Positions 40,767 to 61,458 of a stretch of 64,000 nt of DNA are shown here, in pieces. This stretch comes from Acidobacteria bacterium SCN 69-37 (GTDB lineage: Bacteria > Acidobacteriota > Vicinamibacteria > Vicinamibacterales > SCN-69-37). The notes under the pieces were generated by a model that had not been told where the DNA came from, made no database searches, and saw nothing but the letters and a program-made list of their open reading frames with translations. The stretch spans positions 1 through 64,000 of the forward strand of contig MEDJ01000018.1 of the NCBI GenBank assembly GCA_001724025.1. The letters run 5' to 3'. Both the position numbers and the translations under genes were made by a program. Every line of letters starts with the position of its first letter. The stretch's first letter is position 1.

Positions 40767-41072
40767 TCAGCGATGCCTCGTCAGCGGCTCGAACGCCTGG
40801 CGTAGCAGGGTCTCGGCCTGCGCGCGCGAGAGTGGCGCGGCGGCCTCGGCCGCCGCAGGAGCCGGGGCCGCGGCCATCGGCGACGACGGCGTGGAGGCCT
40901 CGGCGGCCCGATCGCGATCGAGCGACTGGACGAGGTCGTCGAGGAACGTCATGAACTCGGTGCTGGTGACGGCACCGTCGTGGTTGACGTCGGCACGACG
41001 AACCAGTTGATCGACCAGCGACGAGCGATCGCCGCCGGCCGCAGTGACTGATGGAGACAGGCTGTTGATCAC
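40767..41072 (-). CDS. EF-hand protein in flagellar operon
   Basis: A 101-residue protein with one canonical EF-hand loop at residues 28-39, DVNHDGAVTSTE (ligand positions D1, N3, D5, G6, V8, E12 all conserved). It is preceded by a helix with hydrophobic spacing (LVDQLVRRA) and followed by FMTFLDDLVQSL. The remainder is Ala/Pro-rich and ends with a helix (AQAETLLRQAFEPL). Two bases separate it from fliL and 18 from fliK. I know of no standard flagellar protein matching it; calcium binding is inferred. Confidence 0.65.
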   Translation of the reverse strand: MINSLSPSVTAAGGDRSSLVDQLVRRADVNHDGAVTSTEFMTFLDDLVQSLDRDRAAEASTPSSPMAAAPAPAAAEAAAPLSRAQAETLLRQAFEPLTRHR

Positions 41073-41090: not shown

Positions 41091-42851
41091 TCAGGCCACG
41101 ACTTCGAACCGTCCGCCGGAGTCCGGCCGCCGACGACGCGGCTGTCGCGGTTCGCCCTGCTGTCCATCACGACTCGTGCCATCGTCCTGACGGTCGCGGT
41201 CGGCCGACGCCGGGGGCTCGTGGACCTCCAGCCGATCGAGCGTGAGTTGCTGACCCGCGAGGTTCTGGCGCAGCAGGTGCTGGTGGCCCTGCAGCCACTC
41301 GCGCACGACGGGCGCGTCGGCCTCCACGCGGGCCGTGACCTGTCCCTGCTCGACGGACACGCGCACGGTCACGTCGCCGAACTGCCGTGGATCCAGACGG
41401 ATATGCGCTTCGCCACCGTTGCGGAGGATCTGCAGACGGATGGCCTGCACGATCTGTCCGCTGGTGTCGGACGGCAGCGCGTCGGCCGGCACGAACGATG
41501 CGAACGACGTGACGGGCGCTGCCGGCGCAGGCGGTGCCAACCGCGGTGCCGCGTGTGCACCGAGGTTGAAGCCGGGAGCGCCGTCGCCACCCTCCGATGA
41601 CGGTCGGCCGGACGGCGGTGACGGTGGGACGTCATGCCGATCGGAGTTCCTGGAGACGCCGAAGCCACCACGGGAGCCCTGCGGCTGTTCGAGTTGTTCG
41701 GAGCCCTGGGGTGTCAGCCCCGGGGAATCCTCCCCGCGACTGACGCCGCGGCGCCCTGACGGAGGCGCGCCCTGAGTCGACGCGGGCGCATCGGCGCTCT
41801 GGCGTCGGTCGGCCACGTCGAGGCCCTGCGGCGATCCGGTCGCGTCGGCATCCTGCGCCTGCCCGAGCCGTTCGGCGGCGGGTGACTGTCCAAGTCGTGC
41901 TGCGGCCTGGGGCTGGTCGAACCTCTCGGAGCCCTGAGGCAGCTCGCGTCCGTCGGAGCCCTGGGGCTGTCCGGGCCCCTCGGGGCCCTGGGGCTTCAGC
42001 CCCAGGGAATCCTCCCCACGACTGACGCCGCGGAGATCCGACAGACGCGCGCCCTGAACCGGCGCGGGCGCATCAGCGCTCTGGCGTCGGTCGGCCACGT
42101 CGAGGCCCTGCGCCTGTCCGAGCCGTTCGGCGTCCGGCGACTGTCCGCGCCATGCTGCGCCCTGAGGCTCCTCGAGTCCTTCGGAGCCCTGAGGCAGCGG
42201 CTCGCGTCCGTCGGAGCCCTGGGGCTTCAGCCCCAGGGAAGCCTCCCCGCGGCTGACGCCGCGGGGCTCCGGCAGACTCGCGCCCTGAACCGACGCGGAC
42301 GTATCAGCGCCCCGGGATCGTTCGGGCGAGTCGACGCCCTGCGGCGGTGCGGGCCGTTCGGCGTCCGGCGTTTGTCCGAGCCATCCGGCTCCCTGAGGCT
42401 GTTCGAGCCCTTCGGAGCTCTGGCGCGGCTCGCGTCCGTCGAAGCCCTGGAGCGCCTCGCGCCCGTCGGAGCCCTGGAGCGGCTCGCGTCCGTCGGAGCC
42501 CTGGGGCTTCAGCCCCAGGGAAGACTCCTCACGACTGACGCCGCGGGGCTCCGGCAGACCACCGGCTGACGACTCGGGGAACGCCGGGACCGGCACGACG
42601 CGCGCGGCCGCTGCCGCGACCTCGTCGTCGGCAGCGGCCGCGTCGGCGTCGGGATCGTCCGGCGCGTCGGCAGACGCCGGCACGCCATCGTCCGATGGCG
42701 TGCCGGCGTCCACGGGCGCGCCGAACGCGGCAAGTGTGTCGAGGAACGACGCGGCGTCGTTCGCCGGCGCGGCCTGCCCGGCCCCCTTCGGGGGACGGGC
42801 GGCGGCGCCGGCGGCGGACGCCGCACCGGTGAGCGGCGGAAAGGCCAGCAC
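41091..42851 (-). CDS. fliK: flagellar hook-length control protein FliK with repeat-expanded centre
   Basis: A 586-residue protein. The C-terminal FliK domain is clear (about residues 465-560): IVQAIRLQILRNGGEAHIRLDPRQFGDVTVRVSVEQGQVTARVEADAPVVREWL (landmark AHIRLDPRQFGDVTVRVSV). The N-terminus is Ala-rich. The central 300 residues (about 100-400) are low-complexity repeats with four copies of RGVSRxExSxGLxPQG and many QGSDGREP-like units. At DNA level these contain the 22-bp palindrome also found between genes. FliK measures hook length and triggers the FlhB switch, so the expansion could bear on hook length. GTG start. Confidence 0.88.
   Translation of the reverse strand: MLAFPPLTGAASAAGAAARPPKGAGQAAPANDAASFLDTLAAFGAPVDAGTPSDDGVPASADAPDDPDADAAAADDEVAAAAARVVPVPAFPESSAGGLPEPRGVSREESSLGLKPQGSDGREPLQGSDGREALQGFDGREPRQSSEGLEQPQGAGWLGQTPDAERPAPPQGVDSPERSRGADTSASVQGASLPEPRGVSRGEASLGLKPQGSDGREPLPQGSEGLEEPQGAAWRGQSPDAERLGQAQGLDVADRRQSADAPAPVQGARLSDLRGVSRGEDSLGLKPQGPEGPGQPQGSDGRELPQGSERFDQPQAAARLGQSPAAERLGQAQDADATGSPQGLDVADRRQSADAPASTQGAPPSGRRGVSRGEDSPGLTPQGSEQLEQPQGSRGGFGVSRNSDRHDVPPSPPSGRPSSEGGDGAPGFNLGAHAAPRLAPPAPAAPVTSFASFVPADALPSDTSGQIVQAIRLQILRNGGEAHIRLDPRQFGDVTVRVSVEQGQVTARVEADAPVVREWLQGHQHLLRQNLAGQQLTLDRLEVHEPPASADRDRQDDGTSRDGQQGEPRQPRRRRPDSGGRFEVVA
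41704..42520. repeat. in-frame palindromic repeats inside fliK
   Basis: Four 22-bp units at 41704-41725 (imperfect), 41986-42007, 42217-42238 and 42499-42520. The last three are identical perfect palindromes with arms CCCTGGGGCT and AGCCCCAGGG around TC. Spacing is 282, 231 and 282 bp, all multiples of three. Between them lie partial TCGGAGCCCTG units. Confidence 0.85.
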
Positions 42852-54364: not shown

Positions 54365-54386
54365 CCTCGGGGCTTCAGTCCCGAGG
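54365..54386. repeat. 22-bp palindrome (dispersed family)
   Basis: CCTCGGGGCT, then TC, then AGTCCCGAGG: one mismatch from perfect. Same family as the copies at 55585, 60202 and inside fliK. Confidence 0.7.
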
Positions 54387-55584: not shown

Positions 55585-55606
55585 CCCCGAGGCTTCAGCC
55601 TCGGGG
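55585..55606. repeat. 22-bp palindrome (dispersed family)
   Basis: Arms CCCCGAGGCT and AGCCTCGGGG around TC, perfect. Preceded by TTTTCGGAG, identical to the context at 60194-60201. Confidence 0.8.
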
Positions 55607-60125: not shown

Positions 60126-60223
60126 GAGGAGGCTGGGAGGCGACGGGCCGGGAGGAGACAGGAAGACTGGGAGGCGTTCAAGGCCTCGACGACTTTCGGA
60201 GCCCCGAGGCTTCAGCCTCGGGG
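60126..60223. repeat. GGAGGCGAC unit followed by a 22-bp palindrome
   Basis: 60126-60175 carries GGAGGCTGGGAGGCGACGGG and GCCGGGAGGAGACAGG, a relative of the units at 24882 and 29064. 60202-60223 is a perfect 22-bp palindrome (arms CCCCGAGGCT/AGCCTCGGGG) identical to 55585-55606. They occupy the space between the convergent TauE/SafE and MFS genes. Confidence 0.75.
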
Positions 60224-60285: not shown

Positions 60286-61458
60286 TCATCCCCGTCGCCA
60301 GATGACCACCATCGCGACGAAGCCGGCCGCGAGCAGGGCGGCGACGGCCAGGGCTCCGGCCTGCGGAACAGCCGGATACAGGTACAGGGACAGCGCGCCG
60401 ACGGCCGGGCCGGCGAAGACGCCCAGGCCGATGCCCGCCTCGTGGAGCCCGCCGTGCTCGGCCTTGGCCTCGCCGAGATCCATCGCGTAGAAGAGCGACG
60501 AGTAATACGCCATCCCCGTGGCCGCGCCGAACACGATCTGGCCGACCACGAGCACGAGCACATTCGGCGCCAGGACAATCCCGAGGAAACTGACGACGAG
60601 CAGCACGTACGAGGCCGCGAGCCAGCCGAACCGATAGTGCCAGCCCGGCCACTGCCACAGCACCGCGAACGCCACCAGCCGCGCAAAAAACCAGATCGCG
60701 CAGAAGAGCCCCACCTGCGTGGGCGAGAATCCCAACGCCGCCGCCAGACCGGGCATCACGGCCAGCAGCGTGTAGATCGCCACATAGGCCAGCGGATTGG
60801 CCAGCCACGCGAGTTGCAGGAACGTCCGTGCCCTCGGTGGGGATGACAACGGTGCGGGCGGCCGTTCGACGGTCGCCATCGCGCTGCCGGCGTGCACCGG
60901 CAGCCACGGACGACGGCACAACCATGCGAGCCCTGCCAGCGCGATCAGCATGATGGCCGCCGGAATCTCGAACACGAGACGTGGTCCGAGCCAGTCGTAG
61001 AGCGGCCCGCCCGTGAAATACGCAAACGCCGCGGAACCCGACCACGTGAGGTTGTAGATGCCGACCGCGTGCGGGACGCGATCGGGCGGTTCGCCGGCAA
61101 TCGTCATCGCTTCGAGCGCCGGCCACACGTGGAGCAGCGCCACCGTGTAGGCCACGACCACCACGAGCAGTCCGGCCGCGGAGGGCACGAACGCGCCCGC
61201 GATCAGGCAGATCGACAGGCCCGCGAAGCCCACAGCCAGGCTCACGCCGTGTCCGCGGCGCTCAGCGAACCGGCCGCCCCACCACGCCGCGCCGATATAG
61301 ATGGCGCCGTGCAGCGCGGCCACGCCGAGGTTGGCCCGATCGTCGAACCCGAACCGATCGCGCAGCAGGAAGAACAGGTAGCTGAAGTGGTAGAAGGTCG
61401 CAATCGTCGTGAGGGACGCGGCAACCAGGGTGCCGATCGTGAAGAGGCGGGACGACAT
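60286..61458 (-). CDS. MFS transporter
   Basis: A 390-residue protein with twelve predicted helices. ANLGVAALHGAIYIGAAWWGGRFAERRGHG gives the MFS loop 2-3 pattern (GGRFAERRG), and a second copy of the fold begins near residue 215. The ligand is unknown. Divergent from an IclR-type regulator with 54 bp between them, suggesting that regulator controls it. ATG 61458. Confidence 0.85.
   Translation of the reverse strand: MSSRLFTIGTLVAASLTTIATFYHFSYLFFLLRDRFGFDDRANLGVAALHGAIYIGAAWWGGRFAERRGHGVSLAVGFAGLSICLIAGAFVPSAAGLLVVVVAYTVALLHVWPALEAMTIAGEPPDRVPHAVGIYNLTWSGSAAFAYFTGGPLYDWLGPRLVFEIPAAIMLIALAGLAWLCRRPWLPVHAGSAMATVERPPAPLSSPPRARTFLQLAWLANPLAYVAIYTLLAVMPGLAAALGFSPTQVGLFCAIWFFARLVAFAVLWQWPGWHYRFGWLAASYVLLVVSFLGIVLAPNVLVLVVGQIVFGAATGMAYYSSLFYAMDLGEAKAEHGGLHEAGIGLGVFAGPAVGALSLYLYPAVPQAGALAVAALLAAGFVAMVVIWRRG

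Follow-up and report, generated by a model that had tools for sequence, protein, structure and literature searches.

The central region of the flagellar ruler gene fliK in Acidobacteria bacterium SCN 69-37 carries four in-frame copies of an inverted REP doublet, an element otherwise dispersed, mostly between genes, through this genome and found on both sides of its only RAYT (REP-associated tyrosine transposase) gene. With considerable confidence, the repeats can be attributed to a RAYT-associated doublet that entered the fliK linker once, was tandem-duplicated to four copies and survived by tolerance, with no change in hook length needed. The insert appears to be something that a floppy linker tolerates rather than a new function.

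FliK and its repeat-bearing centre

A profile search of the open reading frame places a PF02120 (Flg_hook) domain at aa 474–545 (E 5e-16), and in its flagellar operon the gene is preceded by flgD/flgE and followed by an EF-hand-like ORF and fliL, with fliI as a further neighbour; the C-terminal domain and the operon setting together identify the product as FliK. The small ORF between fliK and fliL (40767–41072, minus strand) has weak EF-hand/dockerin similarity, below the Pfam cut-offs, and a plasmid search using FliK as query returned no match. In an AlphaFold model, pLDDT mostly exceeds 70 at ~461–544 only and is about 30–45 almost everywhere outside the C-terminal domain; the model was built from two sequences only and is weak as evidence for disorder, and the repeat-bearing centre may, on this prediction, be a disordered linker.

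Table 1. Coordinates of fliK, its repeats and related elements. Positions refer to the window (the whole 64,000-nt stretch that was analysed), except for the RAYT gene.
Feature	Position	Strand	Description
fliK	41091–42851	−	586 aa; N-terminal region, then a repeat-bearing centre predicted to be disordered, then the export-switch domain at the C-terminal end (aa ~460–545)
Repeat unit 1	42275–42556	−	282 bp: doublet, 9-aa QGSDGREPL-type repeats and tail
Repeat unit 2	42044–42274	−	231 bp; aligned to units 1 and 3 it shows gaps of 24 and 27 nt
Repeat unit 3	41762–42043	−	282 bp
Repeat unit 4	41650–41761	−	truncated: doublet and about 50 nt
REP doublet copy 1 (LPEPRGVSREESSLGLKPQGSDG)	42498–42559	−	94% to copy 2; palindrome 1 at 42499–42520
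REP doublet copy 2 (LPEPRGVSRGEASLGLKPQGSDG)	42216–42278	−	both hairpins perfect: 42217–42238, 42245–42266
REP doublet copy 3 (LSDLRGVSRGEDSLGLKPQGP)	41985–42046	−	90% to copy 2; GGAG foot of palindrome 1 mutated
REP doublet copy 4 (RRGVSRGEDSPGLTPQGS)	41703–41754	−	most decayed; 88% to copy 2; palindrome 1 with 3 mismatches
Intergenic degenerate REP	54365–54386	+	without GGAG foot
Intergenic REP	55585–55606	+	CGGAG foot; CCCCGAGGCTTCAGCCTCGGGG variant, second most frequent stem type genome-wide
Intergenic REP	60202–60223	+	CGGAG foot; CCCCGAGGCTTCAGCCTCGGGG variant
Sole RAYT gene	L031:1384–1950; G000:C1:290286–290594	−	doublets on both sides

An inverted REP doublet in frame in fliK

Exact copies of the 22-mer CCCTGGGGCTTCAGCCCCAGGG lie at 41986, 42217 and 42499, and a copy with three mismatches at 41704; the four are spaced 282, 231 and 282 nt apart and all share one codon phase at their starts in ORF 41091–42851(−), and shuffled versions of the window gave 0 matches. 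These positions, spacings and the common frame had been recorded in a first-pass annotation and stand, while its description of a perfect 22-bp palindrome does not: the 22-mer has 10-nt arms about an asymmetric TC/GA centre, and the element is therefore directional. The same annotation derived the peptide SLGLKPQG from this palindrome, correctly, yet thereby captured only half of the repeat, as a second palindrome begins 6 nt past each palindrome 1. This second palindrome is perfect in copy 2 (CCCCGCGGCTGACGCCGCGGGG, 42245–42266, followed by CTCCG), has decayed at 42527, 42014 and 41732, and encodes PEPRGVSRG. The real unit in fliK is the whole inverted REP doublet of ~61 nt, of BIME/REPIN type, with hairpin centres 28 bp apart; its entire translation appears in the FliK protein as PEPRGVSRGEASLGLKPQGSD, and about 84 aa of FliK derive from the four doublets.

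The copy-2 doublet matches 48 places in the genome, four in fliK and 44 elsewhere, the best match outside fliK being 89% over 61 nt. Alignments of the fliK doublets to many genomic doublets span 61–64 nt at up to 89% identity, with E down to 1e-16, against one match for the reversed control, and the translation of an intergenic doublet at C1:287037 would be EPRGFSLGDVSLGLKPQGSDG, compared with EPRGVSRGEASLGLKPQGSDG in fliK. The earlier proposal that a dispersed intergenic element lies in frame in fliK, with a host stretch amplified, is borne out by these 44 further places, which also dispose of the objection that the intergenic copies might prove unrelated in a genome-wide alignment. An independent origin or a chance resemblance of the fliK palindromes was rejected on the same doublet matches.

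The genomic REP family and its RAYT

In sequence the fliK palindromes agree with the predominant REP-type repeat of the genome (4.43 Mb in 25 contigs, the one genome of the species), in which the proposed count of the palindrome returned 192 exact GGGGCTTCAGCCCC cores, with 0 for the reversed control, and 145 GGAG-footed exact 26-mers, both strands counted. A census of elements and genes with a home-made, crude gene caller covered a 46.5% sample (2.06 Mb) and contained 159 REP elements, in which the GGAG foot is conserved at 97–100% per position and the stems covary by compensating changes (CCCTGGGG/CCCCAGGG, CCCCGAGG/CCTCGGGG, CCCCGGGG). The commonest stem (59 of the 159) is that of palindrome 1 as found identically in three fliK units. 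The three intergenic relatives listed earlier for the window fare unequally: the copies at 55585 and 60202 have the CGGAG foot and are ordinary members of the family, and that at 54365 is weaker and footless.

Pairing is frequent, a second hairpin lying within 60 nt of 50 of the 159 sampled REPs compared with 1.8% of random places, and eight foot-outward pairs have centres 27–29 bp apart; intergenic doublets share the fliK layout of CGGAG foot, hairpin, 5–7 nt, hairpin and CTCCG foot. The elements avoid genes: 15 of 104 lay inside genes in a first sample, compared with 85% for random positions, and 19 of 159 lay inside crudely called genes in the larger sample, compared with 85% for random 22-mers. 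Most of these 19 were rejected as truly coding: of those inspected, most lie in antisense ORFs (beside gyrB, beside a gene for a DUF7133/HEAT/cytochrome protein, and antisense to an AP-endonuclease-like gene) or at the ends of genes.

The RAYT gene is identified by NF047646 (108.4 bits, cut-off 80), is the genome's only Y1_Tnp gene and, with the same doublets on each side, forms a typical REPtron, an arrangement which suggests that the REPs are mobilised by this single RAYT. Classification as REP-type follows from a high-copy short hairpin that is mostly intergenic, flanks a RAYT and has a conserved 5′ foot, and as a BIME/REPIN-type doublet from two REPs inverted a short distance apart.

Structure and divergence of the repeat units

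Homology between the fliK units extends through the non-REP part, across whole units; clear genomic homologues are confined to the doublets (about 4 × 63 nt of the fliK centre), and a genome comparison found essentially none for the remaining ~170–220 bp of each unit, such that the picture of a fliK centre built from the element holds for the doublets and not for the rest of the 282-bp units. Pairwise dS between units is 0.14–0.26 and dN likewise 0.14–0.26 (dN/dS about 1), and the amino acids therefore look nearly unconstrained, with the reading frame kept. Palindrome 1 is invariant in three units at 22 of 22 positions, compared with 110 of 168 three-way invariant columns, and the longest invariant run across the three has a permutation p of 0.008, for a site picked for being conserved. 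Duplication followed by drift alone does not fully explain this identity amid diverged units, and gene conversion by other REPs is a possible contributor.

Tandem REP feet or half-elements (CGGAGCCCTGG...) have also been observed beside an intergenic REP at L258 (G000:C9:86500–86598), resembling the 9-aa QGSDGREPL repeats of fliK. A REP origin of these peptide repeats is suggested by such arrays; free CGGAGCCCYG heads show no genome-wide enrichment (75, compared with 92 for the reversed motif).

Comparison with related genomes

The footed 26-mer, with 145 copies here, numbers 10 in all across 148 other genomes from the order, and the same-genus genome has neither a footed 26-mer nor a RAYT. 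A search of these 148 genomes found no fliK peptide repeat, nor do the FliK proteins of relatives contain it, which answers the doubt whether it might be conserved in species without the element and marks the event as lineage-specific; with both element and repeat absent from related genomes, the event can be assigned to a branch of the tree. None of 29 RAYT loci from other genomes carries the REP core of this genome. One genome of another family (G019; L245–L249), with 104 core copies, was considered as a bearer of the same REP family and rejected, the copies inspected having mostly a GTAG foot and different outer stems; the 14-nt core common to both genomes apparently reflects convergence of separate REP families.

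FliK lengths in relatives are 542 aa (same genus), 492 aa and mostly 505–650 aa, and the start may be misplaced in two longer ORFs (770 and 810 aa). At 586 aa the protein is of ordinary length, within the relatives' range, and the earlier suggestion that the repeats lengthened the hook ruler finds no support in this comparison. The relatives' linkers are not reliably alignable, so that insertion and replacement of an older linker are indistinguishable.

In-frame REPs in other genes

Two further genes, for a DrrA-type ABC ATPase and MutL, carry in-frame REPs. The DrrA-type gene (L152:7542–8615; G000:C5:32542–33615) has two REPs plus repeats between the ATPase and C-terminal parts; TIGR01188 matches both sides of the REP-derived stretch, SPGAEAPGLREEGDVSRQADLNGAPRLRQDGDKSPQADPDGAPGLRPRGD, and the protein has about 45 residues more than the orthologues of relatives. 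In mutL, a REP with a GGAG foot lies in frame (L227:590–660; G000:C11:~60590–60660) in the linker between the Pfam domains DNA_mis_repair and MutL_C, with no net length gain. The in-frame REPs of FliK, the DrrA-type ATPase and MutL all fall in variable regions, as expected if harmless insertions are those that survive.

Origin and maintenance of the fliK repeats

The fliK palindromes are best read as in-frame copies of the RAYT-associated inverted doublet, its CGGAG feet pointing outward. Comparison with relatives suggests that a single doublet inserted, within putative boundaries, into the predicted disordered middle of fliK after the split from the nearest known congener, and that a ~282-bp stretch containing it was then duplicated in tandem to four copies, in an order that we infer from the homology observed between units. 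As this homology includes the non-REP part, one insertion followed by tandem duplication is the simplest account. The insert may have been kept since almost any sequence that preserves the frame is tolerated in this part of FliK, and, with total length in the normal range, the account requires no altered hook length.

Alternatively, each unit might owe its palindrome to a separate REP insertion, or to renewal by gene conversion from the ~190 genomic copies, an unlikely course that would account for palindrome 1 being the same in three units, and equal to the commonest genomic stem, while the other unit sequence diverged. It sits poorly with four copies at the same position of homologous units in the same frame; moreover, the second palindrome shows one and the same unusual centre, GGCGTCAG (i.e. 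CTGACGCC), in all four units, and among the sampled elements a perfect CGCGGCGTCAGCCGCG stem is seen a single time, within fliK, features which together point to one founder. A broader proposal, in which REP doublets are a recurrent coding source for disordered linkers (FliK, MutL, DrrA-like) and ongoing REP-driven recombination maintains palindrome identity while altering unit number and hook length among strains, is quite doubtful. Convergence of a GC-rich, repetitive linker on the intergenic palindrome through chance or codon bias, with which the unenriched free heads would agree, is scarcely credible given the long genomic alignments and their near-empty reversed control.

Function offers two further readings. 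The repeats could be adaptive, a module by which hook length is set or varied and whose repeat number differs from strain to strain: insertions and deletions in Salmonella FliK alter hook length, a fliK duplication has been selected there as a suppressor (PMC6972891), and the units here differ by in-frame gaps of 24 and 27 nt. The ordinary length of the protein, a dN/dS of about 1 between units and the occurrence of the genome's other in-gene REPs in unrelated proteins nevertheless make this unlikely. Retention of the hairpins for a nucleic-acid role in fliK mRNA, such as translation pausing or mRNA processing, would fit the folding of doublet RNA copies 1–3 at −51 to −57 kcal/mol (z about −3 relative to shuffles), but decay is evident in copy 4 and in the second palindromes of three copies, and relatives manage entirely without the element, leaving such a role very improbable. 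Single insertion, tandem duplication and tolerance thus remain the preferred reading, and the locus cleanly illustrates a selfish hairpin of DNA joining the protein of a conserved machine and being amplified there, as well as offering a natural test of sequence freedom in the linker of the flagellar ruler.

Relation to known systems

Two REP superfamilies, GTAG-tagged and CGTC-tagged, have been described with RAYT (TnpA-REP) proteins (PMC3733652, PMC6006769). The present family resembles REP/BIME/REPIN and RAYT systems in its ~22-nt high-copy, mostly intergenic hairpins, covarying stems, conserved foot and inverted doublets, and in a single RAYT gene flanked by the same elements; its (C)GGAG foot differs from the GTAG/GTGG of the first superfamily, and it is filed as REP-type and not as a GTAG REP, while its consensus, with a CGGAG foot, lacks the CGTC tag of the second. 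A non-GTAG REP family plus its transposase is thereby added for Acidobacteriota.

Translated palindromes of other kinds provide analogies. The palindromic elements of Rickettsia and Wolbachia (RPE; Ogata et al.) are selfish palindromes translated, and apparently tolerated, in otherwise conserved proteins (PMC2229807, review), as the fliK palindromes appear to be; RPE are rickettsial and of 105–146 bp, whereas the element here is a ~61-nt doublet of an acidobacterial genome, and the likeness is one of analogy only, with no sequence relation claimed. PARCEL repeats are palindromic coding repeats specifying a 25-residue amphipathic motif, in ORFs to which no function is assigned (PMC2996958); fliK likewise has tandem coding repeats with dyad symmetry, the elements being unrelated. 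Like Salmonella FliK, in which linker length matters (PMC6972891), the protein combines a C-terminal switch domain with a flexible linker, although its linker composition is different and partly REP-derived.

Intragenic REPs are themselves already known, including in-frame dimers and clusters encoding 20–30 and 43–82 aa (PMC3733652), and those described there share with the present cases in-frame dimers within real genes, DNA repair genes (here mutL) included. Relative to those descriptions, the fliK doublet is distinguished by a duplication that took along about 200 bp of host codons and gave four copies within a ~300-aa linker of a flagellar protein, and the details that appear new are the GGAG foot and the tandem coding amplification of a doublet plus host codons in a flagellar ruler protein.
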